A DNA stretch of 36,862 nt from Parcubacteria group bacterium (lineage in GTDB: Bacteria > Patescibacteriota > Patescibacteriia > Magasanikbacterales > GCA-002688135), in NCBI GenBank assembly GCA_002688135.1, contig NZCD01000036.1, positions 1 through 36,862 on the forward strand, written 5' to 3'. Both the position numbers and the translations under genes were made by a program. Under the pieces are notes generated by a model. That model saw only the letters and a program-made list of their open reading frames with translations. It searched no databases and was not told the origin of the DNA. Shown here piece after piece: positions 6,247 through 35,512 of the stretch. Within the stretch, counting starts at the first letter, position 1, and every line of letters starts with the position of its first letter.

Positions 6247-7026
6247 ATGAAATGTATCATTGGAAGAAAATTAGAAATGACTCGAATTTTTGACGAGCAG
6301 GGGACAGCAACTCCCGTGACTGTTATTGCTGCACCAAAACAAACGGTGACACAAGTTCGCGAGCGCGCAATTCAAGTTGGATGCGAGCCTGTAAAAAAGA
6401 ACGTCAAAAAAGCACAAAAAGGACATTTAAAAAATCTTCCGATGGTTTCAGTTATGCGTGATTTCAAGCTCACTGACGAACAAACATTTGAACGTGGTGA
6501 TTCTTGGGATGCGGGTGTATTTGAAAAGGGAGAAAAAGTAACCGTAACGGGTCATGCAAAAGGACGAGGTTTCCAAGGTGTTGTGAAACGATGGGGATTC
6601 CATGGTTCACCAGCATCTCACGGACACAAAGATCAATTGCGTATGCCTGGTTCAATTGCATCACGAACACAAGGTCCAGTGGCAAAAGGAAAGAAAATGG
6701 GAGGTCACATGGGAACAAATCGTGTAAGTGTTCATAATATTGCTGTTGTAGATATCAATCCTGAAGCAGGACTTTTGTACTTGAAGGGAGCAATTCCTGG
6801 GGCACGTGGTTCTGTTGTAATGGTAAAAGGATTGGGTGAAATGAAGATAGAAAAGAAAGAGGAACCAAAGGCAGAAGTTGTTGAAGAAGTGAAAAATGAA
6901 GAACCTAAAGCAGAAGCTGTTGAGGAGCCAAAGGTTGAAGAAAAGAAAGAGGAAGAAACAAAAGTCGTAGAAGAAGCAAAATCAGAGGTTGTTGTGGAAG
7001 AAACTAAAGAAGAGTCTAAAAGCTAA
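6247..7026 (+). CDS. rplC: 50S ribosomal protein L3 with long K/E-rich C-terminal extension
   Basis: MKCIIGRKLEMTRIFDEQG start; GRGFQGVVKRWGFHG...SHGHKDQLRMPGSIA. Confidence 0.97.
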   Translation: MKCIIGRKLEMTRIFDEQGTATPVTVIAAPKQTVTQVRERAIQVGCEPVKKNVKKAQKGHLKNLPMVSVMRDFKLTDEQTFERGDSWDAGVFEKGEKVTVTGHAKGRGFQGVVKRWGFHGSPASHGHKDQLRMPGSIASRTQGPVAKGKKMGGHMGTNRVSVHNIAVVDINPEAGLLYLKGAIPGARGSVVMVKGLGEMKIEKKEEPKAEVVEEVKNEEPKAEAVEEPKVEEKKEEETKVVEEAKSEVVVEETKEESKS

Positions 7027-7047
7027 CAGCTGAAAGCTAAAAGCTAA
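7019..7047. repeat. Heptad word-repeat half-element (AGCTAAC/AGCTGAA/AGCTAAA/AGCTAAG)
   Basis: AGCTAACAGCTGAAAGCTAAAAGCTAAG; contains the rplC stop codon. Confidence 0.75.
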
Positions 7048-7049
7048 GT

Positions 7050-7685
7050 ATGCCAAAGGCAAACGTATACAACATGAAAGGTGAGAAGCAACGGGAAGTA
7101 GATCTTCCGGAAGCTGTCTTTAATGTAGAAACAGAACCTTCAATTATTCAGGAAGTTGTAGTAGCTTTTCAAGCAAACCAACGTCAGCAATTTGCACACA
7201 CAAAAGATCGTGGAGATGTTTCAGGTGGTGGTAAAAAACCATGGAAACAAAAGGGAACAGGACGCGCGCGTCACGGATCAATCCGTTCACCTTTATGGGT
7301 TGGTGGTGGTGTGACATTTGGTCCACGAAACAACAGAAATTTTAAAAAGAAAGTAAACAAAAAAGTTGCACGGAAAGCATTAAAGATGGTGCTTTCAGAT
7401 CGTGCATCACATGGAGTTGTATCTTTGATCGACACCTTCGATTTAAAAGAAGGTAAAACAAAAACATGCGCACAGCTCATCAAATCTGTGGGTGCTGAAA
7501 AAGCAAAACGCGTGTTGTTTGTAACAAATGGTGTCAATAAAGATGTGGTTCGATGCGCTCGGAATATTCCCAACACATCAGTTACCACGGCAGCTGATCT
7601 TAATGCATACACAGCGATTAAGAATAAAGCACTTGTCTTGGAAGAAGGCTGTCTAGACTTACTCAGTAAAAGACTAATCGAGTGA
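7050..7685 (+). CDS. rplD: 50S ribosomal protein L4
   Basis: KKPWKQKGTGRARHGSIRSPLWVGGGVTFGP. Confidence 0.98.
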   Translation: MPKANVYNMKGEKQREVDLPEAVFNVETEPSIIQEVVVAFQANQRQQFAHTKDRGDVSGGGKKPWKQKGTGRARHGSIRSPLWVGGGVTFGPRNNRNFKKKVNKKVARKALKMVLSDRASHGVVSLIDTFDLKEGKTKTCAQLIKSVGAEKAKRVLFVTNGVNKDVVRCARNIPNTSVTTAADLNAYTAIKNKALVLEEGCLDLLSKRLIE

Positions 7686-7749
7686 GTAGTTGATAGTGAG
7701 TAGTGAGTAGAAAAGTTTCTACCAACTACTCACTACCAACTACAAACTA
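7682..7749. repeat. GTGAGTA heptad inverted-repeat element, copy 1 (rplD-rplW)
   Basis: GTGAGTAGTTGATAGTGAGTAGTGAGTAGAAAAGTTTCTACCAACTACTCACTACCAACTACAAACTA. Confidence 0.95.
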
Positions 7750-7754
7750 AATAT

Positions 7755-8318
7755 ATGTCATTCTTAGGAAAATGGTTTAAAAAGGATAAGAAAGAACGTC
7801 TGGATAAACAGGCTGATGTTGATGTAGATGCAACTCCAAAAGATGACACACAAGCAGCACAGCCAGTAGCACAACCAGCAGCAAAAGCTCCTGCAAAAAA
7901 ACCTGCTGCTAAAAAAGAAGAGAAAAAAGAAGATAAAAAGAAAGCGACGACCAAAGGAAGTCGTCCTCGCGAAGGCGGGGAACCAGTAGAGAAAGAAAAG
8001 GTTGATGCACCGATGGTGACACTCAAGACACCAGATTACATGTCACATATCATCAAGCGATTGCATGTAACAGAAAAAGCAGCCGATGCAGAAGCGCGAT
8101 CAGTCTACACATTTGTAGTTGATAATAAAGCAACAAAGAATGAAATTGCTAAAGAGATTAAGCAAACATATAACGTGACACCAGAAAGTGTACGTGTCAT
8201 GAATATGCGAGGAAAACGAGTACGATGGGGTCGAAATACTGGACAACGTTCAGGATGGAAAAAAGCTATGGTATGCCTGAAGAAGGGCGACAAGATTAAC
8301 CTTCATGAAGGAACCTAA
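7755..8318 (+). CDS. rplW: 50S ribosomal protein L23 with N-terminal extension
   Basis: C-terminal uL23 core HIIKRLHVTEKAADAEARSVYTFVVDNKATKNEIAKEI. Confidence 0.92.
   Translation: MSFLGKWFKKDKKERLDKQADVDVDATPKDDTQAAQPVAQPAAKAPAKKPAAKKEEKKEDKKKATTKGSRPREGGEPVEKEKVDAPMVTLKTPDYMSHIIKRLHVTEKAADAEARSVYTFVVDNKATKNEIAKEIKQTYNVTPESVRVMNMRGKRVRWGRNTGQRSGWKKAMVCLKKGDKINLHEGT
7944..7989 (+). repeat. Palindromic repeat embedded in rplW reading frame
   Basis: GCGACGACCAAAGGAAGTCGTCCTCGCGAAGGCGGGGAACCAGTAG, similar to parB 35598-35643. Confidence 0.75.
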
Positions 8319-8330
8319 TCAGTGAGTAGG

Positions 8331-8391
8331 TTGTAGTGAGTAGTGAGTAGAAAAATTTTTCTACCAACTACTCACTACAAACTACAAACTA
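8331..8391. repeat. GTGAGTA heptad inverted-repeat element, copy 2 (rplW-rplB)
   Basis: AGTGAGTAGGTTGTAGTGAGTAGTGAGTAG ... CTACCAACTACTCACTACAAACTACAAACTA. Confidence 0.95.
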
Positions 8392-8398
8392 GTCAAGT

Positions 8399-9238
8399 AT
8401 GGCGATTAAACGATATAAACCAACAACTCCCGGACGCCGCAAATCTAGTGTGAACACCACAAAAGATTTAACGCAAAAAAGACCGGAAAAGAGTTTGCGT
8501 GTTATCAAAAAGCGAAAAGCTGGACGATCACGTGGGCGAATTGCGGTACGTCACCGAGGTGGTGGTGCAAAACGGTTTATTCGAATTATCGATTTCAAAC
8601 GAACAAAGTTTGATGTACCAGCAACGGTAACAGCTGTTGAATATGATCCAAATCGTGGGGCACACATCATGTTGCTGCAATACGAAGATGGTGAAAAACG
8701 ATATTCATTAGCACCACAGACAATCAAAGAAGGTGATAAGGTTATCTCATCAGAAAAAGAAGTTGATTTAACACCAGGAAATCGAACAAAGTTGAAAAAC
8801 ATTCCAGTTGGTTTGGATTTGCATGATATCGAATTGCAGCCAGGCGCGGGATCACGAATGGTTCGTGGTGCTGGAGGTTCAGCTCGATTGCGTGCGTTGG
8901 AAGGAAAATACGCATTGATCAAATTACCTTCAGGAGAAATCCGAAAGGTATTAGCAGAATGTAGTGCAACACTCGGACAAGTTTCTAACCCAGATCACAA
9001 CTTAGTTAGATACGGAAAAGCTGGTCGTACACGTCACAGAGGATTCCGTCCAACAGTTCGTGGTAAAGTGATGAATCCATGTGATCATCCTCACGGTGGT
9101 GGTGAAGGTTCTACCTCAATTGGTATGACTCATCCAAAAACACCATGGGGAAAACATGCATTGGGTGTTAGAACACGTAAGTCGAAAAAATTCAGCAACA
9201 AATTTATTGTTAAACGTCGTTATCATAAAGGACGATAA
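8399..9238 (+). CDS. rplB: 50S ribosomal protein L2
   Basis: [18 protein letters not shown]...[13 protein letters not shown]. Confidence 0.99.
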
Positions 9239-9243
9239 ATCTC

Positions 9244-9313
9244 TAGTGAGTAGTTGATGGTGAGTAGTGAGTAGAAAAATTTCTACCAACTACTCACTAC
9301 CAACTACAAACTA
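9244..9313. repeat. GTGAGTA heptad inverted-repeat element, copy 3 (rplB-rpsS)
   Basis: Same inverted heptad architecture. Confidence 0.95.
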
Positions 9314-9319
9314 ACCAAT

Positions 9320-9604
9320 ATGTCTAGAAGTCTTAAAAAAGGACCATACGTCGACGAGAAACTGATGAAAAAAATCAGTAAGTTAAAGCAAGGTGACTCT
9401 ACGGTTGTAAAAACCTGGGCTCGTCATTCTTCAATTGCGCCACAAATGGTGGGATTTACGATTGGGGTACATAATGGAAAAGATCATATTCCTGTGTATG
9501 TTGTTGAGAATATGGTTGGACATAAATTGGGAGAATTTGCACCAACACGTAAATTTGTTCGACATGGTGGTAAATTGCAAAAGACACAAGAAAAGAAAAA
9601 GTAA
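9320..9604 (+). CDS. rpsS: 30S ribosomal protein S19
   Basis: [15 protein letters not shown]...[13 protein letters not shown]. Confidence 0.98.
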
Positions 9605-9607
9605 ATT

Positions 9608-9678
9608 AGTGAGTAGGTTGTAGTGAGTAGTGAGTAGAAAAATTTTTCTACCAACTACTCACTACAAACTACAAACTA
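9608..9678. repeat. GTGAGTA heptad inverted-repeat element, copy 4 (rpsS-rplV)
   Basis: Same inverted heptad architecture. Confidence 0.95.
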
Positions 9679-9685
9679 AGCAAAT

Positions 9686-10183
9686 ATGGATATTAAAGCA
9701 CACGCAAAATTTGTACGAATCTCACCGCGAAAAGTTCGTTTGGTGACTTCACTCGTAAAAGGCATGAAAGTGCCCCATGCGTTGGTGCAACTAAAAATGA
9801 CAACAAAACGATCAGCGCCAGTAGTTAAAAAGTTGATTGAATCAGCAATGGCAAATGCTCGTCATAATTTCAAGGTAGATCCTGAAAACCTCATTATTTC
9901 TGAGGCTTTCGTAAATGCAGGACCAACCATGAAAAGATGGCGACCGCGTGCCATGGGGCGAGCGGCGAAAATTCGCAAGCGAACATCGCACATCAGCATC
10001 ACCCTTTCGGATGATGCACTGAAGAACGGAAGAACGGAAGAACCGAAGAACGCAGCAACCACAGACGCGGTAAAGGAGAAGAAGGTCGAAACAAAACCAA
10101 AAGCTGAAACCAAAAAACAGGAAAAGAAAGACACGAAGAAAGCATCAAAGAAAAAGGATGAGGTGAAATGCGAAAAGAAATAA
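9686..10183 (+). CDS. rplV: 50S ribosomal protein L22 with lysine-rich C-terminal extension
   Basis: AKFVRISPRKVRLV...GPTMKRWRPRAMGRAAKIRKRTSHI. Confidence 0.97.
   Translation: MDIKAHAKFVRISPRKVRLVTSLVKGMKVPHALVQLKMTTKRSAPVVKKLIESAMANARHNFKVDPENLIISEAFVNAGPTMKRWRPRAMGRAAKIRKRTSHISITLSDDALKNGRTEEPKNAATTDAVKEKKVETKPKAETKKQEKKDTKKASKKKDEVKCEKK
10017..10060 (+). repeat. Octad word repeat inside rplV coding sequence
   Basis: ACTGAAGAACGGAAGAACGGAAGAACCGAAGAACGCAGCAACC, close to 1645-1690. Confidence 0.75.
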
Positions 10184-10188
10184 TACTT

Positions 10189-10222
10189 TATTCTTAATTC
10201 TTTATACTTGATACTTAATCCA
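10189..10222. repeat. Heptad word repeat half-element between rplV and rpsC
   Basis: TTTATTC TTAATTC TTTATAC TTGATAC TTAATCC. Confidence 0.65.
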
Positions 10223-10223
10223 T

Positions 10224-10871
10224 ATGGGTCACAAAGTACATCCAAAAATCTTCCGAATGCAGGTCATCTACAAATGGCCATCACGTTGGTTTGCGAAATT
10301 GAATAAAGAAGAATATCGAAAAAATCTTCGACAAGATATTGAGATTCGTGATTTTATTCGTAAGCAATGCAAAGACGCGGGTGTAGATGAAATTAAAGTA
10401 GAACGTGACTTATCTGGAGAAGTGACTATCATCTTGACAGTTGCAAAGCCAGGGCTTATTATTGGTCGCGGTGGTTCTGGAGTAGAGGAATTAACAACAA
10501 AGATTGAAAAGCAAATTCTGAAAGGAAAGAATAAGATGCGTATGAATGTGGTTGAGATCAAAAAGCCAAATCTTTCAGCACGAGTTGTTGGAATGAATAT
10601 GGCAGCTGATCTTGAAAAACGTATGCCATATCGTCGCGTATTGAAACAAGCTTTGGATCGAGTTGATAAAGCTGGTGCAAAAGGTGTGCGAGTGATGGTT
10701 GCTGGCCGATTAAATGGTGCAGATATTGCACGTCGTGAAACTTTATCTCGCGGAAAAATTCCTTTACAGAATCTTCGCGCAGATATTGATTATGCACGAA
10801 TTAACGCACACACCATTTACGGAGTGATCGGAATCAAGGTTTGGATTTATAAAGGTGAGGTATTCGACTAG
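10224..10871 (+). CDS. rpsC: 30S ribosomal protein S3
   Basis: MGHKVHPKIFRMQVIYKWPSRWFA...GLIIGRGGSGVEEL (KH domain). Confidence 0.98.
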   Translation: MGHKVHPKIFRMQVIYKWPSRWFAKLNKEEYRKNLRQDIEIRDFIRKQCKDAGVDEIKVERDLSGEVTIILTVAKPGLIIGRGGSGVEELTTKIEKQILKGKNKMRMNVVEIKKPNLSARVVGMNMAADLEKRMPYRRVLKQALDRVDKAGAKGVRVMVAGRLNGADIARRETLSRGKIPLQNLRADIDYARINAHTIYGVIGIKVWIYKGEVFD

Positions 10872-10935
10872 TGAGTAGTGGGTAGTGAGTAGTGAGTAGA
10901 AAAATCTACTAACTACTCACTACCAACTACAAACT
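10869..10935. repeat. GTGAGTA heptad inverted-repeat element, copy 5 (rpsC-rplP)
   Basis: TAGTGAGTAGTGGGTAGTGAGTAGTGAGTAG...CTACTAACTACTCACTACCAACTACAAACT. Confidence 0.95.
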
Positions 10936-10943
10936 GAAAAAAT

Positions 10944-11369
10944 ATGTTAATCCCTAAGAAAGTAAAACATAGAAAGTGGCATAAAGGACGTCGTCGCAAC
11001 AAAGGTGTTGCACAAACAAAGACGACCGTTGATTTTGGTGCATTCGGATTGAAATCTCAATCACACGCGTGGGTAACATCTCGCCAAATTGAAGCTGCAC
11101 GTCGCGCAATTACAAGACACATCAAACGTGGTGGAAAGCTCTGGATTCGTATTTTCCCGGACAAACCAATTACCAAAAAGGGTAATGAAATGCCGATGGG
11201 AAAAGGAAAGGGAGCTGTTGATCACTATGTCGCAATTGTAAAACCCGGATGTATCATCTTTGAATTGGATGGTGTGGAGAAAGATTTAGCTAGACGAGCA
11301 TTTGAGTTGGCAGCACATAAATTGCCAGTCAAAACACTGTTCGTCGAAAAAAATGAAATCCGCATATGA
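10944..11369 (+). CDS. rplP: 50S ribosomal protein L16
   Basis: [21 protein letters not shown]. Confidence 0.98.
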
Positions 11370-11560
11370 GCAAGAAAGAAAAATTTTCATTACACGATGA
11401 ATCAGTGCTCGTAAAGATGTTGCATGACAAACAAGTAGAGCTTGCAGGATTACGATTTCAAGCATCCAATAAAGCATTACGGCAGGTTAATAAGATTGGT
11501 ACCGTTCGCAAAGATATTGCGCGAATTAAATGCGCATTACATTCAAAAGCAAGTGAGTAG
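11366..11560 (+). CDS. rpmC: 50S ribosomal protein L29
   Basis: 64 aa, position between rplP and rps[28 protein letters not shown]. Confidence 0.93.
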
Positions 11561-11621
11561 TTTGTAGTGAGTAGTTGGTAGAAAAACTATCTACCAACTA
11601 CTCACTACCAACTACAAACTA
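11553..11621. repeat. GTGAGTA heptad inverted-repeat element, copy 6 (rpmC-rpsQ)
   Basis: Same architecture; overlaps the rpmC stop. Confidence 0.95.
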
Positions 11622-11628
11622 ATAAAAT

Positions 11629-11889
11629 ATGGATAAAGGCACAACAACACAAAAAAATGTCATCAAGCGAGTATTTTCTGGCGTGGTGGTAAAAAAGACA
11701 GCCGATAAAACGGTGCGTGTTAAAGTTGCTCGAACAGTTATCCATTCAAAGTATAAAAAACGATACACCAAACATGATAACTATCTCGTACATGATCCAA
11801 AAAATCAGTTTGAGGTAGGACAAAAAGTATCGTTTGAGCAATGTCGTCCAATTTCAAAAATGAAACGATGGCGAGTGCTTTATCAGTGA
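11629..11889 (+). CDS. rpsQ: 30S ribosomal protein S17
   Basis: FSGVVVKKTADKTVRVKVARTVIHSKYKKRYTKHDNYLVHDP. Confidence 0.97.
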   Translation: MDKGTTTQKNVIKRVFSGVVVKKTADKTVRVKVARTVIHSKYKKRYTKHDNYLVHDPKNQFEVGQKVSFEQCRPISKMKRWRVLYQ

Positions 11890-11953
11890 GTAGGTTGTAG
11901 TGAGTAGTGAGTAGAAGAATTTCTACCAACTACTCACTACAAACTACAAACTA
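11886..11953. repeat. GTGAGTA heptad inverted-repeat element, copy 7 (rpsQ-rplN)
   Basis: Same architecture; overlaps rpsQ TGA. Confidence 0.95.
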
Positions 11954-11958
11954 ATCCT

Positions 11959-12330
11959 ATGTTACAACAAGAGTCAAAATTGTTATCAGCAGATAATAGT
12001 GGCGCAAAGCGACTCAAGGTTATTCGTGTACTCGGAGGGTATAAAAAGCGGTATGCGAGAATCGGTGACATTATTACATGTTCAGTAAAAGAGGCTGCGC
12101 CTCGCGGACAAGTAAAAAAAGGTGAGGTTGTTCATGTGGTTTTGGTAAGAAGTAAAAAAGAAACAGTACGTCCTGACGGAACTGCAGTTCGTTTTTCAGA
12201 AAATGCTGGAGTAATTATCGATAAGAAAAATAAAGAACCACGCGCAACACGTATTTTCGGTCCAGTGGCGAGAGAGTTGCGAGCAATGGGATATAATAAA
12301 ATCATCTCGCTTGCACCAGAAGTATTGTAG
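11959..12330 (+). CDS. rplN: 50S ribosomal protein L14
   Basis: [20 protein letters not shown]...[10 protein letters not shown]. Confidence 0.98.
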
Positions 12331-12331
12331 C

Positions 12332-12401
12332 TAGTGAGTAGTGGATAGTGAGTAGTGAGTAGAAATATTTCTACCAACTACTCACTACCAACTACAAACT
12401 A
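12332..12401. repeat. GTGAGTA heptad inverted-repeat element, copy 8 (rplN-rplX)
   Basis: Same architecture. Confidence 0.95.
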
Positions 12402-12408
12402 AACAAAT

Positions 12409-12657
12409 ATGGCTAAACAACACGTACAATCTGGAGATAATGTAAAAGTGCTTGCCGGCAAAGACAAAGGTAAAACCGGTAAGATTCTTCAGGTATTTCC
12501 AAAAAAGAATCGCGTTGTTGTTGAGGGTATAAATGTAATGAAAAAACATTTGAAATCACGAGGAAATGAAAAAGGGCAGGTGATAGAGTTGTCCGCACCT
12601 GTTCACATTTCCAACGTGAAGAAGATAACTGAAAGCGAGAAGGAGACTAAGAAATAA
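12409..12657 (+). CDS. rplX: 50S ribosomal protein L24
   Basis: [35 protein letters not shown]. Confidence 0.98.
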
Positions 12658-12725
12658 GTGAGTAGTGGATAGTGAGTAGTGAGTAGAAAAATTTCTACCA
12701 ACTACTCACTACCAACTACAAACTA
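12657..12725. repeat. GTGAGTA heptad inverted-repeat element, copy 9 (rplX-rplE)
   Basis: Same architecture. Confidence 0.95.
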
Positions 12726-12732
12726 ACCAAAT

Positions 12733-13278
12733 ATGTCAGCACTCAAAGAATTATACAACACAGCAGTACTGCCAAAACTCAAGCAAGAACTTGGGTGTGA
12801 CAATGTGCATGCATGTCCTAAGCTTGAAAAGGTTGTGGTACATGTTGGTTTCGGAAAACACGCAAAAGATGGTGAGTATGTGAAGAACGTCAAAAAGACA
12901 TTACGAAACATCACCGGACAAGAACCAGTAGATGCACCTGCAAAGAAATCAATTTCAAACTTTAAAGTCCGTGAAGGAAACATCATTGGAGCAAAAGTAA
13001 CATTGCGCGGAAAATTGATGTATGATTTTGTGGAGCGCATGATTAATGTAACATTGCCACGAGTTCCTGATTTCCGAGGATTGAAAGTTAAAAATGTTGA
13101 TGCTGATGGAAATTTGAATTTCGGATTTAAAGACCAAATCGCATTTCCAGAAAGTTCACCAGAAGATATTCATAATCCGCATGGTGTACAAGTAACAGTA
13201 AAAACAACAGCAGAAAATCACAAAGATGGATTCATGTTGTTGGATACACTAGGATTCCCATTTAGTAAGAATGAGTAG
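12733..13278 (+). CDS. rplE: 50S ribosomal protein L5
   Basis: VTLRGKLMYDFVERMINVTLPRVPDFRGL. Confidence 0.98.
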   Translation: MSALKELYNTAVLPKLKQELGCDNVHACPKLEKVVVHVGFGKHAKDGEYVKNVKKTLRNITGQEPVDAPAKKSISNFKVREGNIIGAKVTLRGKLMYDFVERMINVTLPRVPDFRGLKVKNVDADGNLNFGFKDQIAFPESSPEDIHNPHGVQVTVKTTAENHKDGFMLLDTLGFPFSKNE

Positions 13279-13334
13279 TTTGTAGTGAGTAGTGAGTACG
13301 ATTCTACTCACTACTCACTACCAACTACAAACTA
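13272..13334. repeat. GTGAGTA heptad inverted-repeat element, copy 10 (rplE-rpsN)
   Basis: GAGTAGTTTGTAGTGAGTAGTGAGTACGATTCTACTCACTACTCACTACCAACTACAAACTA. Confidence 0.95.
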
Positions 13335-13341
13335 AAAAAAT

Positions 13342-13527
13342 ATGGCTACAAAAGCGCAAGTGATCAAATCACAAAAAACGCCAAAATTTTCCTCACGAAA
13401 GGTAAATAGATGCTGGCGTTGTGGACGAAAACGAGGATACATGAGAAAATTTGATCTCTGCCGCATTTGTTTCCGTGAATTAGCTAATGCCGGAGACATT
13501 CCGGGAGTACGTAAATCATCTTGGTAA
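13342..13527 (+). CDS. rpsN: 30S ribosomal protein S14, type Z (zinc-binding)
   Basis: [25 protein letters not shown], 61 aa. Confidence 0.97.
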
Positions 13528-13533
13528 TTTATC

Positions 13534-13609
13534 AGTGAGTAGTGGGTAGTGAGTAGTGAGTAGAAAAATTTCTACCAACTACTCACTACCAACTACCAAC
13601 TACAAACTA
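13534..13609. repeat. GTGAGTA heptad inverted-repeat element, copy 11 (rpsN-rpsH)
   Basis: Same architecture with an extra CAACTAC word. Confidence 0.95.
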
Positions 13610-13614
13610 GTTTT

Positions 13615-14007
13615 ATGATGACAGATCCAATCGCAGACATGTTGACCAGAATTAGAAACGCATGTATGGTACGCAAGCCATCAGTGTCTTTGCCGTACTC
13701 AAAATTGAAATTTGCGATTGCACAGAAAATGGCTGAAGCAGGTTACATCAAAGAGGTGGTCAAGGAAGAAGGTGTGGGAAAACCAACCATGACAATGTCA
13801 CTGAAATACAAAGGTAAGTTGCCACACATCACAGAAATCCATCGCGTCAGCAAACCAGGATTACGTATTTACGTAAAATCGGATTCAATTCCAAAAGTAA
13901 AGGGTGGATACGGAACAGCATTTTTATCAACATCACAAGGATTAATGACAGACGAGCAGGCGCGCGAAAAGGGCGTCGGGGGAGAGCTTGTATGCACGTT
14001 ATATTAA
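13615..14007 (+). CDS. rpsH: 30S ribosomal protein S8
   Basis: MTDPIADMLTRIRNA...STSQGLMTDEQAREKGVGGELVC. Confidence 0.98.
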   Translation: MMTDPIADMLTRIRNACMVRKPSVSLPYSKLKFAIAQKMAEAGYIKEVVKEEGVGKPTMTMSLKYKGKLPHITEIHRVSKPGLRIYVKSDSIPKVKGGYGTAFLSTSQGLMTDEQAREKGVGGELVCTLY

Positions 14008-14016
14008 ATCACCCAT

Positions 14017-14562
14017 ATGTCACGTATCGGACGAAAACCCATCACGATTCCGGAGGGAGTCAAAGTCGCAATAAGCGATGGGCATATTGTGGTATCTGGA
14101 TCAAAAGGTGAATTGAAGCAAGTAACTAATCCTGCGGTGAACATTGAAATTAAGGATAATGTTATTGGTGTAACGGTAAACACTCCAGAAGATAAAAGAG
14201 AGCGCGCATTGTGGGGATTGTACGGATCATTAATCGCCAACATGATCACAGGAGTTACAGAAGGATATGAAAAGCAATTGGAAGTTCGTGGTGTTGGATT
14301 TAAAAGTAAAGTAGACGGAAAGAAATTGGTTTTGGATGTAGGATATTCTCACCAAGTAAATTATGAGATTCCAGAAGGTATTGAAATAAAGGCAGAAAAA
14401 AATATTTTAACAATTACAGGAATTGATAAACAACTAGTCGGATTTGTAGCAAGTCGAATTAGATCAGTCCGAAAACCTGAACCATACAAAGGAAAGGGGA
14501 TTCGATATGTCGACGAACAAGTACAAATGAAAGCTGGTAAAGCTGCAAAGGCCGCTGGTTAA
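14017..14562 (+). CDS. rplF: 50S ribosomal protein L6
   Basis: MSRIGRKPITIPEGV...PEPYKGKGIRY. Confidence 0.98.
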   Translation: MSRIGRKPITIPEGVKVAISDGHIVVSGSKGELKQVTNPAVNIEIKDNVIGVTVNTPEDKRERALWGLYGSLIANMITGVTEGYEKQLEVRGVGFKSKVDGKKLVLDVGYSHQVNYEIPEGIEIKAEKNILTITGIDKQLVGFVASRIRSVRKPEPYKGKGIRYVDEQVQMKAGKAAKAAG

Positions 14563-14730
14563 CAAGAACCTATCTAAGAATTAATCATTATGCATCTTTA
14601 GCCCCCATTTCCCGCTAAGAAAGCTCAAAGCTCGTCGGCGATGGATCCACATCTCCTTCTCGCTTGTTCACTTCCTTATCGGAAAATGGATGCTAAATCT
14701 ACACAACGCTAATTCTAAGATAGATTCTCC
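14563..14730 (+). ncRNA. Structured leader candidate, copy 1 (upstream of rplR)
   Basis: Long-range pairing TATCTAAGAATTA (14571-14583)/TAATTCTAAGATA (14710-14722); core GCTCAAAGCTCGTCGGCGATGGATCCACATCTCCTTCTCGC shared with 20724-20888. Confidence 0.6.
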
Positions 14731-14732
14731 AT

Positions 14733-15110
14733 ATGAAAACAGCACATAAAACATCAGACAAAACTGTCGCACGAAAAAGACGTCAAAAGCGCGTACGCGC
14801 ACAGATTTCTGGTACAGCGACACGACCGCGTTTGACTGTTTTCAGATCAAACACTGCAATCCGCGCACAGCTGATCGATGATGCAAAAGGAGTGACGCTC
14901 GTTTCAGTTGATTCAAAAAAGATTGATGGAAAAGATGCAGGGGAGCGATCAGGAAATGTTGCAAAGGCGTTTAACGTAGGACGCGAGATCGCAAAACTAG
15001 CAAAAACAAAGAAAGTTGAAACAATAGTTTTTGATCGTGCAGGATATGCTTATCATGGCCAAGTCAAAGCAGTCGCCGATGGCGCTCGCGAAGGTGGTCT
15101 AACTTTTTAA
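14733..15110 (+). CDS. rplR: 50S ribosomal protein L18
   Basis: RPRLTVFRSNTAIRAQLIDDAKGVTLVSVDS...VFDRAGYAYHGQVKAVADGAREGGL. Confidence 0.97.
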   Translation: MKTAHKTSDKTVARKRRQKRVRAQISGTATRPRLTVFRSNTAIRAQLIDDAKGVTLVSVDSKKIDGKDAGERSGNVAKAFNVGREIAKLAKTKKVETIVFDRAGYAYHGQVKAVADGAREGGLTF

Positions 15111-15111
15111 T

Positions 15112-15645
15112 ATGCCGGAAGCAACAGCACAAAAAAAGCAGCAGGGGAATCGCGGAAGAAATAATCGCCCTCGTCAAAACAGACGACCTCGTCGTGAGGA
15201 GCGTGAGTTTGAGCAGCGCGTGGTAGATCTCGCTCGTGTAACACGTGTGACATCTGGTGGAAAACGAATGAGCTTTCGTGCAACTGTTGTGGTTGGTGAT
15301 AAAAAGGGCAGAGTAGGATACGGAATCGCAAAAGGAAAAGACGTACAAGCTGCAATTCAAAAAGCGGTAGCGAAAGGTGAAAAATCAGTCATTCGCGTAC
15401 CAATGAAAAAGAATACTATTCCCCATGAAATTAACAAAAAATTTAAAGCAGCAAAAGTTTTATTGAAACCTGCCCCAGATGGTACTGGAGTTATTGCTGG
15501 TGGTGCGGTTCGTATTGTATTAGAATTATCAGGAATCAAAGATATTGTTGGAAAGATGTTAGGATCAACCAGCAAACACAATAACGTACACGCAACTATT
15601 GAGGCACTGAAAGATCTACAGTTAGCTGCAGCAAAAAAAGCATAA
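15112..15645 (+). CDS. rpsE: 30S ribosomal protein S5
   Basis: RVTSGGKRMSFRATVVVGDKKGRVGYGIAKGKDV. Confidence 0.98.
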   Translation: MPEATAQKKQQGNRGRNNRPRQNRRPRREEREFEQRVVDLARVTRVTSGGKRMSFRATVVVGDKKGRVGYGIAKGKDVQAAIQKAVAKGEKSVIRVPMKKNTIPHEINKKFKAAKVLLKPAPDGTGVIAGGAVRIVLELSGIKDIVGKMLGSTSKHNNVHATIEALKDLQLAAAKKA

Positions 15646-15649
15646 ACAT

Positions 15650-16075
15650 ATGTCATTATCTCTAAACACCCTCACTAAAAAAGGTAAGAAATCAAAGCCT
15701 CGTCGCGGACGTGGTAATGCTTCTGGTGCGGGAACATATTCAGGAAGAGGAATCAAAGGGCAGAAGGCACGCTCAGGTTCTTCTGGTTTGAAAGAGATGG
15801 CATTGCGACGTGTAGTACAACGAATTCCAAAAAAACGTGGATTTAAACCAGTGCGCACAAAACCAGAGGGTGTCACATTGGCGACAATACAGAAAAATTT
15901 TGAAGAAAATGCTATAATTACTCCGAAAGTTTTACGAAAAGCAGGATTCATTAAGACCTCACAGGTGCGCATCGTAAACACTGGAATACTCAAAAAGAAA
16001 TTTTCATTTAAATCATGTAATGTAACGGCAGGAGCACGCGCAGCTATCGAGGCTGCTGGTGGAAGCATTGCATAA
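15650..16075 (+). CDS. rplO: 50S ribosomal protein L15
   Basis: MSLSLNTLTKKGKKSKPRRGRGNASGAGTYSGRGIKGQKAR. Confidence 0.96.
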   Translation: MSLSLNTLTKKGKKSKPRRGRGNASGAGTYSGRGIKGQKARSGSSGLKEMALRRVVQRIPKKRGFKPVRTKPEGVTLATIQKNFEENAIITPKVLRKAGFIKTSQVRIVNTGILKKKFSFKSCNVTAGARAAIEAAGGSIA

Positions 16076-16097
16076 ATTCTTTACTTTCTTTCTCGGC

Positions 16098-17372
16098 ATG
16101 ATCGAGCAACTCAAGAAAATCTGGAATATTAAAGATTTGCGTAACAGCATTCTTTTTGTTGTTGCGACACTCGTAATTTTCCGAATCGTCGCACATATTC
16201 CATTACCAGGTGTTGATGTAGCAAGTTTGAGACAATTTTTCAGCAACAACCAACTACTCGGATTGTTGAATATTTTCTCTGGTGGAACACTCCAGAATTT
16301 CTCCGTTATTGTAATGGGTGTAGGTCCATTTATTACCGCATCCATTATTTTGCAGCTTCTGACGATGGTAATTCCAAAACTTGAAGAACTATCAAAAGAA
16401 GGAGAATACGGACAAAAGAAAATCAACCAATACACCAGATTACTCACAGTTCCACTATCAGTTCTGCAAGGATACGGAACAATCCAACTCATCAATCAAT
16501 CAGCACACAACATCTTCCCAGACCTCACAGGCTTCATGATGCTAAAAACATTACTTACAGTTACAGCTGGAACAATATTCTTGATGTGGCTGGGTGAATT
16601 AATTTCAGAAAAAAATATCGGAAACGGAATCTCATTCCTTATTTTCGCCGGTATTATTGCTGGATTGCCTCAATTCGTACAACAAGCCGCGGTTACATTT
16701 ACTGAAGCAGATTTCATCACATACTTGCTATACGCAATTTTGACTGTCGGAACTGTTGCTGGAGTTGTCTATATCACCGAAGCACAAAGAAACATTCCTG
16801 TGGTATATGCGCGCCATGTGCGAGGTTCCAGAATGGGTGGGGGATCTCGGTCATTTCTTCCATTACGATTGAACATGGGTGGAATGATCCCTATTATCTT
16901 CGCAATTTCTGTTGTATTATTCCCATCTCTAATCGCACAATTTTTCATCAATGCACAAACACCATGGGTCGCAAATCTTGCTGCAAGTACGATCGCATTC
17001 TTTGAAAACCAATTCTACTACGGATTATTCTACTTTGCTCTTGTGATGATTTTCACATTCTTCTACGCATCTGTAATTTTCCATCCAGAAAAAATCGCAG
17101 AGAACTTACAGAAACAAGGTGGATTTATTCCAGGTATCCGTCCAGGAAAACACACACAAGAATACATCAACACAATCAAAAATCGTATTCTACTTTTCGG
17201 GGCACTCTTCCTTTCGGTAATTGCTGTATTTCCACTCGTACTACAAGCATTCACAAACACATCAGTCCTCACAATTGGTGGTGTAAGTATTTTGATCGTT
17301 GTGGCTGTTGTTATCGACATCATCAAAAAAATAGAAGCCCAGATACAAATGAGGGCGTATGATCAAGTATAA
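16098..17372 (+). CDS. secY: Preprotein translocase subunit SecY
   Basis: MIEQLKKIWNIKDLRNSILFV...; multi-TM SecY motifs; start chosen at 16098. Confidence 0.97.
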   Translation: MIEQLKKIWNIKDLRNSILFVVATLVIFRIVAHIPLPGVDVASLRQFFSNNQLLGLLNIFSGGTLQNFSVIVMGVGPFITASIILQLLTMVIPKLEELSKEGEYGQKKINQYTRLLTVPLSVLQGYGTIQLINQSAHNIFPDLTGFMMLKTLLTVTAGTIFLMWLGELISEKNIGNGISFLIFAGIIAGLPQFVQQAAVTFTEADFITYLLYAILTVGTVAGVVYITEAQRNIPVVYARHVRGSRMGGGSRSFLPLRLNMGGMIPIIFAISVVLFPSLIAQFFINAQTPWVANLAASTIAFFENQFYYGLFYFALVMIFTFFYASVIFHPEKIAENLQKQGGFIPGIRPGKHTQEYINTIKNRILLFGALFLSVIAVFPLVLQAFTNTSVLTIGGVSILIVVAVVIDIIKKIEAQIQMRAYDQV

Positions 17373-17395
17373 GTTAGAATCAAGAATAAAGTACA

Positions 17396-17418
17396 AATCT
17401 CGCTTTGCGGGATTTTTG
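17396..17418 (+). terminator. Rho-independent terminator after secY
   Basis: AATCTCGC-TTT-GCGGGATT + TTT. Confidence 0.75.
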
Positions 17419-17425
17419 TTTACTA

Positions 17426-17454
17426 TTGACAAACACTCAAAAAATAGATATAGT
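17426..17454 (+). promoter_or_regulatory. Sigma70-like promoter of the 17490 ORF
   Basis: TTGACA (17426-17431), 17 nt, TATAGT (17449-17454). Confidence 0.8.
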
Positions 17455-17489
17455 AATCCTTGATCATTCAACAAAAAAAGAGGTAAAAA

Positions 17490-18101
17490 ATGGGAGAATA
17501 CGCCGTGCAAAGCGATAAAAAAGAAGACGGGCTGGATCTCCTGGGTATGACTGCTGCACACTTGATTGTGGAATCAGCATATCGAAACGGTCTAACAATC
17601 ACAGAGCTTCGTAGGCTCGCAGAAGATGATGTCATGCAGCGCGTCATCCCGATTATTCGAGATGAGCCTCCGGTGGAATCAGCTCCGGATCCAAACAGAA
17701 TTATTATTGATTGCGATGCGGATCCATTCATCCCCGACAGCTGGTCTGTTGAGGAACATCGAAAGGGTGGTCAGCTGGAATGGAATTGCGAGAATGTCGA
17801 ACTCTGGCTCTCGCAGGAACAACAAAGCAGTTCAATTCAGGGACATCAGCTGCGCAAACAAATGGCAGAAAAGAGGGTGTTCAACGCCAACGTGTTGGAC
17901 CACCTACTGACCAACCCACACATCATTCCCGAGGAGTGGAAAAGTCAGTACATCTTCTTCTGGGGAACCATTTACCGCAACCGGAACGGCCGCCTGTATG
18001 TCCGCTCTCTCTACTGGGACGGTGGTGCCTGGTGCTGGAACGACGGCTGGCTGGGTCGCCGCTGGCGCGGCGGCCCGGCGTTGGTACCCGCACGTAATTA
18101 G
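17490..18101 (+). CDS. Candidate diversity-generating-retroelement target-like protein (aromatic/Gly-rich C-terminus)
   Basis: 203 aa; C-term YRNRNGRLYVRSLYWDGGAWCWNDGWLGRRWRGGPALV; own promoter and terminator. Confidence 0.7.
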   Translation: MGEYAVQSDKKEDGLDLLGMTAAHLIVESAYRNGLTITELRRLAEDDVMQRVIPIIRDEPPVESAPDPNRIIIDCDADPFIPDSWSVEEHRKGGQLEWNCENVELWLSQEQQSSSIQGHQLRKQMAEKRVFNANVLDHLLTNPHIIPEEWKSQYIFFWGTIYRNRNGRLYVRSLYWDGGAWCWNDGWLGRRWRGGPALVPARN

Positions 18102-18170
18102 TACTTAGAACTCTGTTTCTGTGTACTGGTCCTTTGTTCTTAGATCTTTGTCCTTAATTTTCAGTTTTCC

Positions 18171-18212
18171 GACCCACAACCGTGCAATGCACTGGTGTGG
18201 GTCTTTTTCTTT
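18171..18212 (+). terminator. Rho-independent terminator
   Basis: GACCCACA...TGTGGGTC + TTTTTCTTTT. Confidence 0.9.
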
Positions 18213-18275
18213 TATTTGTAATTAATGTGAAATTTCCCTATAATACAGCTGTATTCACTAATCACACTACCTCAT

Positions 18276-18953
18276 ATGGCACCCAGCCAAGAACTTGAGG
18301 GTGGTCCGCCGATTATCATCGTGCTAGGTCCGCCAGGTTCCGGAAAAGGAACACAAGCGCAGCGCTTGAAAGATCGTTGTAAGATGTCACATTTATCACC
18401 AGGTTCACTACTGCGTGAACTAAAAAAGAAAGACCCAAAGAAGCTTCCGCCAAAAACAAGGCGTGAATTAAAGAAGATGGAAAGAGGTGATATGGTGGGG
18501 CATTGGTTGGTATATGATTTAATGTTTCCTAAAATCAAGAAGGCATTAAAAAAGGGAAATGGTGTGATTATTGATGGAGCTATTCGAACAGTGGAACAAG
18601 TAGAAGGATACACAGAATTTTTTGAAAAACATGATCTGATGAATCGAGTTGTCGTTGTGTATGTTCATGTTACAAAAGCAGAAGCTGTAAAACGATTGAA
18701 AGCACGAAAAGTAAAAGTAAATGGAAAATGGACAAAGCGAGAGGATGACGTAAATAGAAAGGCAATGGAACATCGATTCGCTGTCCAAGGAAATACAGCG
18801 CAAAGACCGGTTCTAAAAGCATTAAAAAAATTTGTGTTAGTTGAGAAAGTTGATGGCCACGGTACTATCAATCAAATCGAAAAACGCATTGCTAATAGAT
18901 TAGTTAAAAAAGGAGCTCTCAAGAAAAAAGGTGGGAAGTATGTCTGTATATGA
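18276..18953 (+). CDS. adk: Adenylate kinase
   Basis: IIIVLGPPGSGKGTQAQRL...GVIIDGAIRTVEQ. Confidence 0.95.
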   Translation: MAPSQELEGGPPIIIVLGPPGSGKGTQAQRLKDRCKMSHLSPGSLLRELKKKDPKKLPPKTRRELKKMERGDMVGHWLVYDLMFPKIKKALKKGNGVIIDGAIRTVEQVEGYTEFFEKHDLMNRVVVVYVHVTKAEAVKRLKARKVKVNGKWTKREDDVNRKAMEHRFAVQGNTAQRPVLKALKKFVLVEKVDGHGTINQIEKRIANRLVKKGALKKKGGKYVCI

Positions 18954-19717
18954 GTCTAATTAAATCGAAAGAAGATATAGATCTGATAAGAGAAGGGGGG
19001 CACAAACTTGCACAAATTGTGGAAGATCTTGTGACGCGTGTAGGCCCTGGTGTGCGAACTGATGAGTTGGATAAACAGGCAGAAGCAGCAATGCGAGAAT
19101 TTGGCGCACGCCCAGCATTTTTGGATTATTCTCCTGGCGGGCACAGACCATTTAATTCCACAATCTGCGCATGCATTAATGAGGAAGTTGTTCATGCTCC
19201 AGCACATCCAGGGCGTGAGCTGAAAGAGGGTGATATTTTTTCGATTGATATTGGAATGGAATATAAAGGGCGTTATACAGACATGGCAGTGACTGTTCCT
19301 GTGGGGAAAATTTCAGATGAAGCACAGAAGATAATTGATGTTACCAAGCGATCATTTTTTACAGGCTTAGAGGGGATCAAGGCGGGCGAATCCATCAATG
19401 TAATCGGAAAAGCTGTGCAAGAAGTTGTTGAGGGAGAAGGTTATCATATTGTTCGCGCATTGGTAGGACATGGAGTAGGACATGCGGTTCATGAAGATCC
19501 ACAAGTTCCAAACTTCAATGATCCGCGCGCAGAAAAAATCAAACTAGAAGAAGGAATGGTTTTAGCTATAGAACCCATGGTGACAACACATTCACACGAA
19601 GTAACAACAGCAGATGACGGATGGACGGTTATACCAAAAGATGGAGGGCTCTCGGCTCATTGGGAGCATACACTCGTAGTAACAAAAGATGGTTACGAAA
19701 TCCTAACCAAGATATGA
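18950..19717 (+). CDS. map: Type I methionine aminopeptidase
   Basis: INEEVVHAPAHPGRELKEGDIFSIDIG...GHGVGHAVHEDPQVPNF. Confidence 0.97.
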   Translation: MSLIKSKEDIDLIREGGHKLAQIVEDLVTRVGPGVRTDELDKQAEAAMREFGARPAFLDYSPGGHRPFNSTICACINEEVVHAPAHPGRELKEGDIFSIDIGMEYKGRYTDMAVTVPVGKISDEAQKIIDVTKRSFFTGLEGIKAGESINVIGKAVQEVVEGEGYHIVRALVGHGVGHAVHEDPQVPNFNDPRAEKIKLEEGMVLAIEPMVTTHSHEVTTADDGWTVIPKDGGLSAHWEHTLVVTKDGYEILTKI

Positions 19718-20103
19718 GCAAGATTAAAGGAATGCGCTTATTAGGAATTGATTATGGTGAAACCCATATAGGTTTTGCATTCAAACCTGAAGATTCTAAA
19801 TTAGCAGTTCCTCATCAAATATTCGACAGGAAGCCTGGTGACCGAGAAGCTCTCATAGATGAAGTAAAAGATATTGTGGATGAGCTAGAGGTAGAGATGG
19901 TAATTGTAGGTTTGCCTCTGACACTTCAAGGAAAGCCAGACAAGATGTGTGATCGAGTAGCATTATTCATTCATGATCTGCGTAAAAATATTTCGGTACG
20001 AGTAGATCAAGAAGACGAACGCATGACAACGCGTATGGCTGGTAAACATGCACACGATCTTTCTGCTGCGATCATATTACAAACATATATAGATACTAAT
20101 TAG
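19714..20103 (+). CDS. ruvX: Putative Holliday junction resolvase RuvX/YqgF
   Basis: MRLLGIDYGETHIGFAF...VIVGLPLTLQGKP...DERMTTRMA; start at 19714. Confidence 0.9.
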   Translation: MSKIKGMRLLGIDYGETHIGFAFKPEDSKLAVPHQIFDRKPGDREALIDEVKDIVDELEVEMVIVGLPLTLQGKPDKMCDRVALFIHDLRKNISVRVDQEDERMTTRMAGKHAHDLSAAIILQTYIDTN

Positions 20104-20168
20104 TGAGTAGTTGTTAGTGAGTAGTGAGTAGAAAAAGCTACTCACTGCTCACTACAAACTACAAACTA
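20101..20168. repeat. GTGAGTA heptad inverted-repeat element, copy 12 (ruvX-recO)
   Basis: TAGTGAGTAGTTGTTAGTGAGTAGTGAGTAGAAAAAGCTACTCACTGCTCACTACAAACTACAAACTA. Confidence 0.95.
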
Positions 20169-20724: not shown

Positions 20725-20888
20725 TATGTAAACAATTCATCCTCAAATAGAATCATCCATCTTCAGCAGCAATTTTCTGCTAGAATAGCTCAAAGCTCAT
20801 CGGCGATGCGCACACATCTCCTTTTCGCTTATTCGCTACTCTATCAAAAAATGTCTACTAAATATGAATAACTCTATTTAAGGATAAA
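20724..20888 (+). ncRNA. Structured leader candidate, copy 2 (upstream of asnS)
   Basis: CCTCAAATAG (20741-20750)/CTATTTAAGG (20874-20883); core GCTCAAAGCTCATCGGCGATGCGCACACATCTCCTTTTCGC. Confidence 0.6.
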
Positions 20889-33759: not shown

Positions 33760-33832
33760 TTGCGGGGGTCGGACTCGAACCGACGACCTGGAGGTTATGG
33801 GCCTCCCGAGCTGCCAACTGCTCTACCCCGCG
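33760..33832 (-). tRNA. Initiator tRNA-fMet(CAU)
   Basis: CGCGGGGTAGAGCAGTTGGCAGCTCGGGAGGCCCATAACCTCCAGGTCGTCGGTTCGAGTCCGACCCCCGCAA; C1-A72 mismatch. Confidence 0.92.
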
Positions 33833-33902: not shown

Positions 33903-34322
33903 AGCTGTCAGCTGTCAGATTTCAGCTGTCAGACTGCATTTTACGAATCATGGTTGCGAGCATTTTTCTGATTTCAGTTAAAAGTTCAAAAACCCGATTG
34001 TAGAACTCTTCATTTCCGTACTTCAATTTTTTTGAAATTATAAGTTGGGTTTCAAGCTCTGCTACTGATCCAGAACTAATTCTTAGAAAATTTGTGTAGT
34101 CTTTTTTAGTTCCTCGCTGTCTTCCTTCTGCTATGTTACTCGGAATCGATACTGCACATCGCCGCATTTGGCTGACGAGTCCATACAATTCCGATTTCGG
34201 AAATTTTGTTGTTAATGTATAGATCATGCCAACAAGGTCTATTGCTCGCTGCCAAACAATTAATTCTCTGTGCGTCTTGATAGGCATATGTCTGAAAGCT
34301 GACAGCTGAAACCTGAAAGCTA
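33903..34322 (-). mobile_element. Putative element: four-helix-bundle ORF bounded by heptad-word inverted repeats
   Basis: AGCTGTCAGCTGTCAGATTTCAGCTGTCAG (33903-33932) vs reverse complement of CTGAAAGCTGACAGCTGAAACCTGAAAGCTA (34292-34322). Confidence 0.7.
33922..34287 (-). CDS. Four helix bundle protein, 23S rRNA-intervening-sequence (S23) type
   Basis: HRELIVWQRAIDLVGMIYTLTTKFPKSELYGLVSQMRRCAVSIPSNIAEGRQRGTKKDYTNFLRISSGSVAELETQLIISKKL. Confidence 0.95.
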   Translation of the reverse strand: MPIKTHRELIVWQRAIDLVGMIYTLTTKFPKSELYGLVSQMRRCAVSIPSNIAEGRQRGTKKDYTNFLRISSGSVAELETQLIISKKLKYGNEEFYNRVFELLTEIRKMLATMIRKMQSDS

Positions 34323-34327
34323 AAAAG

Positions 34328-34414
34328 TGGTACCGGGAGAGAGACTTGAACTCTCACGAGCTTGCGCTCATTGGATTTTGAGTCCAACGCGTCTACCAGT
34401 TCCGCCATCCCGGC
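34328..34414 (-). tRNA. tRNA-Leu(CAA), CCA encoded
   Basis: GCCGGGATGGCGGAACTGGTAGACGCGTTGGACTCAAAATCCAATGAGCGCAAGCTCGTGAGAGTTCAAGTCTCTCTCCCGGTACCA. Confidence 0.92.
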
Positions 34415-34424
34415 CTAGAAAAAC

Positions 34425-34542
34425 TAGCTGTTAGCTTTTAGCTTGTAGCTGTTAGGAAAAGTGTCGCTAGAGGCGACGTATCAATATGTCGAGCTTCGCT
34501 CGACTCAATCCCTAAAAGCTAACAGCTCAAAGCTAAAAGCTA
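34425..34542. repeat. Heptad-word inverted-repeat element without ORF
   Basis: TAGCTGTTAGCTTTTAGCTTGTAGCTGTTAG ... CTAAAAGCTAACAGCTCAAAGCTAAAAGCTA. Confidence 0.85.
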
Positions 34543-35390: not shown

Positions 35391-35411
35391 CCGCGAAGCG
35401 GAATGACCAAG

Positions 35412-35512
35412 TATTAAAATCCAAATGTCAAAGGAATGTCAAAGCTCAAAATCCAAATGACATTTCTAGAAGCAATATTTGACATTTGAGCTTTGAAATT
35501 TGAAATTATTGA
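35412..35512. repeat. Heptad-word inverted-repeat element between parA and parB
   Basis: ATCCAAATGTCAAAGGAATGTCAAAGCTCAAAATCCAAATGACATTT...ATTTGACATTTGAGCTTTGAAATTTGAAATT. Confidence 0.75.

Follow-up and report, generated by a model that had tools for sequence, protein, structure and literature searches.

To our knowledge, the PF05635 family of four-helix-bundle (4HB) proteins, which came to notice decades ago in split 23S rRNA genes and is represented by two solved structures, has no assigned function, and we know of no catalytic site in this fold. The heptamer repeats of cyanobacteria, Xanthomonas, Beggiatoaceae and Geobacter, including the heptanucleotide STRRs of cyanobacteria reportedly described by Mazel in 1990, have been described separately, with no mechanism for their spread that is evident to us. 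In a third kind of system, the REP/BIME hairpins with their RAYT proteins (REPINs), many intergenic hairpins per genome coexist with a resident owner gene that co-varies with the repeat; RAYTs are Y1 HUH nucleases.

Among the closest described counterparts of the elements analyzed here is the intervening sequence (IVS) in the 23S rRNA gene of Coxiella burnetii, which, in the portion of the published account drawn upon here (PMC4990558), is about 430 nt long, contains an S23p (PF05635) ORF between complementary ends of about 28 nt and carries tandem GACAGAT heptamers ahead of the ORF in a strain-variable copy number. Heptamers without an assigned role have also been described as GGGNATC in Xanthomonas and Nostoc (PMC4692102), as TAACTGA in Beggiatoaceae, cyanobacteria and Bacteroidetes (PMC4679880), and as heptanucleotide elements in Geobacter metallireducens (PMC2700814). 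The first two of these texts do not mention S23 or helix-bundle proteins, the third has nothing relevant on four-helix proteins or intervening sequences, and the open-licence literature searched yielded no paper that links heptamer repeats to PF05635 or gives a rule connecting protein and word. The Coxiella IVS heptamers and the Xanthomonas/Nostoc, Beggiatoaceae and Geobacter repeats are thus known already, whereas the link to PF05635 and the protein-word rule described below appear, from this literature, to be new.

The locus that led us to this link lies in a window of 36,862 nt, that is, the whole stretch of DNA that was analyzed, and consists of the following features.

33922..34287, minus strand: gene of a 4HB protein of 121 aa, PF05635/TIGR02436 (profile matches, fold model)
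34292..34321, minus strand (read 34321 to 34292): upstream array AGCTTTC AGGTTTC AGCTGTC AGCTTTC AG (period 7, z 7.2)
33903..33932, plus strand: downstream inverted array AGCTGTC AGCTGTC AGATTTC AGCTGTC AG (read from the sequence)

The initial annotation had described a 4HB ORF bracketed by inverted arrays of heptad words, with the start just inside one arm and the stop codon and last residues within the other, and inspection base by base bears out this description: each arm consists of four AGCTTTC-like 7-nt words, the two arms are mutually inverted, the ATG is 4 nt inward from the upstream arm's inner edge, and the downstream arm codes for the final residues and the TGA stop. The outer limit of the element is at 34321, not 34322. 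The protein scores above the curated cut-offs of both PF05635 (134 bits, E 2e-39; cut-off 33.8) and TIGR02436 (130 bits; cut-off 24). The window contains 16 matches to AGCTNTCAGCTNTC with at most two mismatches, where 2.7 would be expected and 100 shuffles gave no more than 6, and the word pair occurs 47 times across the genome, compared with 8 for the pattern read backwards. The element is flanked by tRNA-Leu (34328-34414) and tRNA-Met (33760-33832) genes, both on the strand of the 4HB gene, so this copy is not inside a 23S rRNA gene; an Rfam search of the window returned three tRNAs only, with no known RNA family at the element.

The likeness to the 23S IVSs consists in the same protein family, a similar size and an ORF enclosed between complementary ends (PMC4990558). 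By contrast, the present elements lie between protein or tRNA genes, with only one copy, from an order-mate (L068), apparently located in a 23S rRNA gene, and this copy has 7-nt words too. The general period of 7-9 nt and the clade-specific arrays with gene-less copies are features of the present elements that are absent from the Coxiella account in the portion considered (PMC4990558). The published heptamer repeats resemble the present arrays in being tandem 7-nt units, often about four of them, that are intergenic, oriented, close to start codons, sometimes arranged as inverted pairs and found in distant taxa. Tandem intergenic 7-nt units of the STRR or heptamer-repeat kind are indeed present here, the comparison being made at the level of general description; the difference is that the present arrays accompany one particular gene family, which they flank and track.

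An AlphaFold model of the window protein (pLDDT 91) is predicted to adopt the four-helix-bundle fold of 2GSC and 2RLD. The solved homologues, XCC0516 (PDB 2GSC) and BT_0352 (2RLD), with five chains each, were deposited without a function and with no ligand or word assigned; the window protein is 43% identical to 2GSC over 107 columns, and its model superimposes on it with a TM of 0.87 and an rmsd of 0.7. 2GSC has been reported to be a homopentamer (Lin et al. 2006, as cited in the part of PMC4990558 used here). The Avd proteins (PDB 4DWL, 8UB7) are also ring-forming four-helix bundles that work with nucleic acid, but they are more distant in fold (TM 0.80), only weakly related in sequence and tied to a reverse transcriptase (RT) cassette; the window protein scores below the cut-offs of the NCBIfam Avd equivalog (30 bits against 80) and of bAvd (27.9 against 40). 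Domain and fold searches detected no catalytic transposase in the element, the 4HB ORF being the only ORF between the arms.

The association of PF05635 genes with word arms is close to universal. Among 57 genomes of the same order, the family is present in 28, with up to 12 copies per genome. For 110 complete loci, the 130 nt upstream of the gene were compared with the reverse complement of the 130 nt downstream, at a threshold score of 16, which was reached by 97 of the 110 true pairs (the other 13 loci have no clear arms) as opposed to 21 of 440 mismatched pairs (Fisher p 1.6e-71) and 15 of 204 control ORFs (at least 150 aa, from the fetched loci); the median score was 21 for true and 10 for mismatched pairs. 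Autocorrelation of the arms peaks only at 7, 8 and 9 nt, with a significant period of this kind in 79 of the 97 elements and lag identities of 0.48, 0.39 and 0.34 at the three periods, compared with 0.32 in shuffled arms. An array holds about four words, namely, about 4.4, 4.3 and 3.8 for periods 7, 8 and 9. Thus, the number of words and the length of the array are both not strictly constant, and a constant word number set by the pentamer was rejected.

In the source genome, all five 4HB genes above the cut-off are flanked by arms, each with its own word: AGCTTTC in the window, AAGTATT on contig C39, TAAAGCG on C59, AGTAGTG at C68/C29, where the gene is split across contig ends, and ATGTCAA on C68. 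Word arms were found in more than 20 phyla, cyanobacteria included, and the armed relatives of the window protein in GTDB come from many candidate phyla, Bacteroidota, Clostridia, Omnitrophota, Planctomycetota, Chlorobiota, Gammaproteobacteria and Nostoc, with TAGCTTN or TAGNNNN as the commonest type of arm. The flanking arms that the initial annotation had proposed to look for in other members of the family are therefore found both in order-mates and in other phyla. Copies on cyanobacterial plasmids have AGTAGGG, AGGTGAC, AAGAGGG, AGGGTGT and AGGAGTC arms. In the Pseudanabaena galeata plasmid (L175), the arrays around the 4HB gene are direct, not inverted, and long (AAAAGCT, about 14 units; AAAAGCC, about 9 units). 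The 4HB elements of three cyanobacterial plasmid loci (L175, L176 and L183) are situated within CRISPR operons, at cas6|cas4 of type I-D and at cas10|cmr3.

The same words occur in the window as hairpins and solo arrays that enclose no ORF.

34426..34541, minus strand: ORF-less element with AGCTTTT/AGCTGTT words and two small hairpins in the interior (word search)
7016..7045, minus strand: solo AGCTTTT-type array in the rplC/rplD gap, providing the rplC stop codon (word search)
7681..7749, plus strand: ORF-less AGTAGTG hairpin downstream of rplD, with the word of the C68/C29 4HB gene
8321..8395, plus strand: ORF-less AGTAGTG hairpin
9245..9313, plus strand: ORF-less AGTAGTG hairpin
9608..9677, plus strand: ORF-less AGTAGTG hairpin
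10186..10216, minus strand: solo AAGTATT array in the rplV/rpsC gap, owner C39:19185 (score 27 over 31 nt)
10870..10935, plus strand: ORF-less AGTAGTG hairpin overlapping the rpsC stop codon
11552..11621, plus strand: ORF-less AGTAGTG hairpin
11885..11952, plus strand: ORF-less AGTAGTG hairpin
12333..12401, plus strand: ORF-less AGTAGTG hairpin
12657..12725, plus strand: ORF-less AGTAGTG hairpin
13272..13333, plus strand: ORF-less AGTAGTG hairpin
13534..13608, plus strand: ORF-less AGTAGTG hairpin
20102..20167, plus strand: ORF-less AGTAGTG hairpin
35408..35506, plus strand: ORF-less ATGTCAA array pair in the parA/parB-like gap, owner C68:15241 (word search)

The element at 34426-34541 has two counterparts in the source genome (C15:29344-29459 and C25:5890-5998), with AGCTTTT words and a similar two-hairpin interior. 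The 12 AGTAGTG hairpins of the window, which are concentrated in the ribosomal operon region (7681-20167) and belong to a family with 36 sites genome-wide, are near copies of one another, loop included, although they lie between unrelated genes (82% mean column identity); the stems of the ORF-less hairpins comprise about 30 nt per arm. In another genome (G016), gaps of the ribosomal operon contain TAGCCAATAGTTCA hairpins, and a full copy with TAGCCAATAGTTCA is also present (L049). Two word families tend to be present where the genome has an ORF of the matching clade, the counts being 4/6 versus 5/51 for one family and 4/5 versus 7/52 for the other (p 0.004 each). ORF-less elements with the identical word architecture, as claimed at the outset, thus exist at 34426-34541 and elsewhere. 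The further suggestion that the window ORF is a candidate for their autonomous parent holds in part: ORF-less copies with resident words are abundant, but this gene cannot be the single parent of all of them given that the genome has five 4HB genes with five words and that most of the ORF-less hairpins in the window (the 12 of AGTAGTG type) carry the word of the C68/C29 gene. Similarly, the view of ORF-less arrays as derivatives agrees with the abundance of resident-word copies, but some genomes have many such arrays and no matching-clade ORF (G032, G056, G020 and G023 for GGCTTACAA; G035 for TAGCCAATAGTTCA). A 5'-truncation signature was also considered; all seven solo arrays of the source genome are downstream-arm-like, but two other word families gave a polarity of 7 to 5, so this candidate was dropped.

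As in the REP/RAYT systems, dispersed intergenic hairpins match the ends of a resident gene, and a genome contains many hairpins together with a gene that owns, and co-varies with, the repeat. However, the repeat-associated protein here is PF05635, not a Y1 (HUH) transposase, so that a 4HB fold takes the place of the RAYT nuclease, and the repeat is an array of 7-9-nt words as opposed to a single REP.

Every 4HB copy is associated with a word of its own, which tracks the lineage of the protein, not the host genome or the site. On the protein tree, the period changes 11 times, compared with 31.4 changes when shuffled, and none of 200 shuffles was as low. Clade-specific words recur across genera and sites, with period 9 (GGCTTACAA, AAGTCTGTA), period 8 (GATTAGTT, AAATTGTT) and period 7 (CACATAT, TAGCCAATAGTTCA, TTAGGTT). 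For 160 elements from the order and GTDB, protein identity correlates with word similarity (Mantel r 0.374, and 0.398 in the strand-specific version; 0 of 1000 permutations in each case). For protein pairs from different genomes that are at least 60% identical, the word score is 11.9 when the same strand is compared and 5.7 with the reverse complement, and the contrast persists, at 11.6 versus 5.7, in pairs with unrelated outer flanks. Moreover, for 118 of the 160 elements, the word match with the nearest protein from another genome falls in the top decile (31 in the reverse-complement control), and the period is equal in 61 of 72 comparisons versus 0.41 expected. For the window protein and its nearest relatives, the numerical word match is modest (5-9), with a common AGCTT core apparent by eye. 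The co-variation of word and protein that the initial annotation had put forward as a check is thus borne out by the period changes on the tree, the Mantel correlations and the nearest-protein comparison. Such a correspondence over many phyla is what would be expected if the 4HB protein reads the word, which, judging from these sequence comparisons, is the most likely explanation.

The elements come and go between species. The ybaB|recR site is filled in four genomes (G049, G054, G052 and G020), holds an ORF-less arm pair in G016 and is empty, with gaps of 3-14 nt, in five others (G043, G051, G037, G034 and G015); within one genus, the gap measures 3 nt in G043 versus 457 nt in G052. Similarly, infB|trxA is occupied in G008 but is an empty site in G022, a member of the same genus. 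The empty sites sought are thus present at both loci at the species level, and occupied versus empty sites between species represent gain or loss. As these empty sites are between species and not strains, they did not capture any insertion with precise ends or a duplicated target; in the species-level pairs inspected for target-site duplication, the element ends are blurred by word variation. Placement is in sense, with both neighbours on the strand of the 4HB gene in 81 cases and both opposed in none, and the protein evolves under purifying selection (dN/dS 0.07-0.13).

The nusG|rplK site shows a different pattern. In three ORF-bearing genomes, a conserved host leader is situated between the ORF and the downstream arm, and in four genomes without the ORF, the arms are positioned around the same leader; in at least two of the ORF-less genomes (G047 and G049), the words belong to another resident 4HB protein. 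These observations suggest that the origin or replacement of arms can be uncoupled from the ORF, and the arms at this site look added or renewed in place; leader-enclosing arms are unexplained by a simple transposon with fixed ends. At the seven loci concerned (L300, L306, L309, L310, L314, L318 and L321), the arms bracket the rplK leader, which has a GCTTCTC hairpin, and the words differ between sister genomes.

From this body of sequence evidence, we infer, as the rather probable interpretation, that the 4HB protein reads a lineage-specific word and that the hairpins are its dispersed targets, spread in trans through the action of the protein. The window gene with its two arms would be one member of a widespread family of one-gene elements, in which a pentameric 4HB ring would recognize a 7-, 8- or 9-nt word that varies from one protein lineage to another; the gene would have some four copies of this word at either end, in inverted orientation, and the same word would recur in gene-less hairpins, up to tens per genome, located in operon gaps. 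Because the arms of the gene and the hairpins of the same genome carry one word, the protein would have an address, namely, this word. Conceivably, one protomer binds one word, in the hairpin or in a duplex. The hairpins would be non-autonomous targets analogous to the REP hairpins of RAYT proteins, and, by the same analogy, protein-bound hairpins might be copied by host replication or repair enzymes, the involvement of the host being invoked since the fold has no known nuclease, polymerase or recombinase.

Several other explanations have to be weighed against this one. If the 4HB protein were a regulator that controls its own gene and many operons via arrays near stop and start codons, the arrays would arise in place by slippage and be selected rather than mobile. 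We consider this unlikely, even though the arms do lie at the stop codon of the preceding gene and the start codon of the following gene (median -3 and -2 nt), both the source genome and G016 have punctuated ribosomal operons, the arms bracket the nusG|rplK leader with words that differ between sister genomes, and purifying selection is strong. Slippage in place does not sit well with 12 hairpins that are nearly identical, loop included, between unrelated genes, with the common two-hairpin interior of other ORF-less copies, or with sites occupied or empty between species of one genus. In addition, the words of five paralogues in a single genome differ, and a distribution over many phyla with as many as 12 paralogues in one genome is a typical feature of mobile genes. 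Quite unlikely, too, is the possibility that the arms are kept for an RNA stem, such that the arrays pair, an RNase III-like enzyme cuts them and polycistronic RNA is punctuated harmlessly as in the 23S IVSs, with the protein a passenger or a weak RNA binder. The window element is predicted to fold with its arms paired in a stem that encloses the ORF (z -2.84), and the stems of the ORF-less hairpins, the strict sense placement within transcripts, the copy in a 23S rRNA gene and the RNase III cleavage of the Coxiella IVS stem that is reported in the portion of PMC4990558 considered are all compatible with this scenario. It leaves unexplained, however, why word and period track the protein clade. 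Furthermore, the two arms hardly mirror each other in word order (2 of 59 beyond word-order shuffles, overall p 0.045), and compensatory changes are confined to 1 of 24 pairs, so it is doubtful that pairing by itself is the conserved feature; strict RNA-stem covariation was rejected on these grounds, and recognition of each array by the protein would be favoured over pairing alone.

Mobilization in trans by an RT or by an IS200/IS605-type (Y1) transposase, with the 4HB protein as an accessory factor comparable to Avd in diversity-generating retroelements, appears highly improbable. Avd has the same fold and is the partner of a reverse transcriptase, and sense-only placement would fit an RNA intermediate, but an RT is present in 16 of the 28 genomes with a 4HB gene and in 15 of the 29 without one (p 0.79), and four genomes with 4-9 elements (G020, G046, G051 and G052; incomplete assemblies) have neither enzyme. 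The only RT match of the source genome is on C32, a contig other than the window, and the Avd-like gene next to it has no word arms (score 10). Retro-mobility through the host RT and a Y1 transposase as the mobilizer were both rejected, the former for the absence of association and the latter for its absence from element-rich genomes; the elements need neither enzyme. The C32 locus itself (G000:C32:7438-8602; L012, L157), with an RT and an Avd-like four-helix-bundle gene on the opposite strand, is possibly a diversity-generating retroelement. A phage origin was rejected as well, with zero tblastn matches in 50,697 phage records. Finally, some arms are AT-rich, for example AAATTGTT, as would be the case if the arms reflected chance or low complexity near AT-rich genes, but mismatched pairs, reverse-complement controls, backwards patterns and control ORFs all fail to reproduce the arms, and the probability of this explanation is negligible.

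The reading of a word by the 4HB protein remains, in our assessment, the preferred explanation, and the evidence suggests that this protein recognizes a word in DNA or RNA and is behind several bacterial repeat families that have lacked an explanation. The elements can be placed with the selfish intervening-sequence elements and the owner-repeat systems, with a real chance that they form a new class. The specific proposal that, across bacteria, a catalysis-free ring protein with a code of lineage-specific tandem 7-9-nt words drives the spread and concerted renewal of hairpins in operons, and that the 23S IVSs and the orphan heptamers (STRRs, TAACTGA, GGGNATC) share this origin, is more tentative, being possible rather than probable. 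The link offers PF05635 a candidate function, that is, reading a word predictable from the protein sequence, and the orphan heptamer repeats a candidate owner; it would also partly explain the unusual punctuation seen in the ribosomal operons of bacteria of the candidate phyla. A natural code that leads from a protein sequence to a tandem word of 7-9 nt could be technically useful.

Some further repeats and gene features were observed along the way. In the window, a hairpin of GAACGAA/GAACTTA-type words fills the rpsG-like/fusA gap (1651-1769), and among the 4HB genes of the source genome no owner of this word was recognized. The gaps at 14563-14732 and 20725-20888 contain related sequences, AGCTCAAAGCTCNTCGGCGATG followed by CACATCTCCTTNTCGCTT, which constitute a separate dispersed repeat with no word array. 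The ribosomal operon of G016 includes hairpins (L338 and L345) with a common interior, TTGACATAAAT...TTTAATATAATAGCC, that is promoter-element-like, with unusual spacing. At seven loci (L044, L051, L060, L116, L132, L133 and L140), the 4HB genes begin with ATGGAGGG, a Shine-Dalgarno-like sequence directly after the start codon, and the true start of these genes may lie further downstream.
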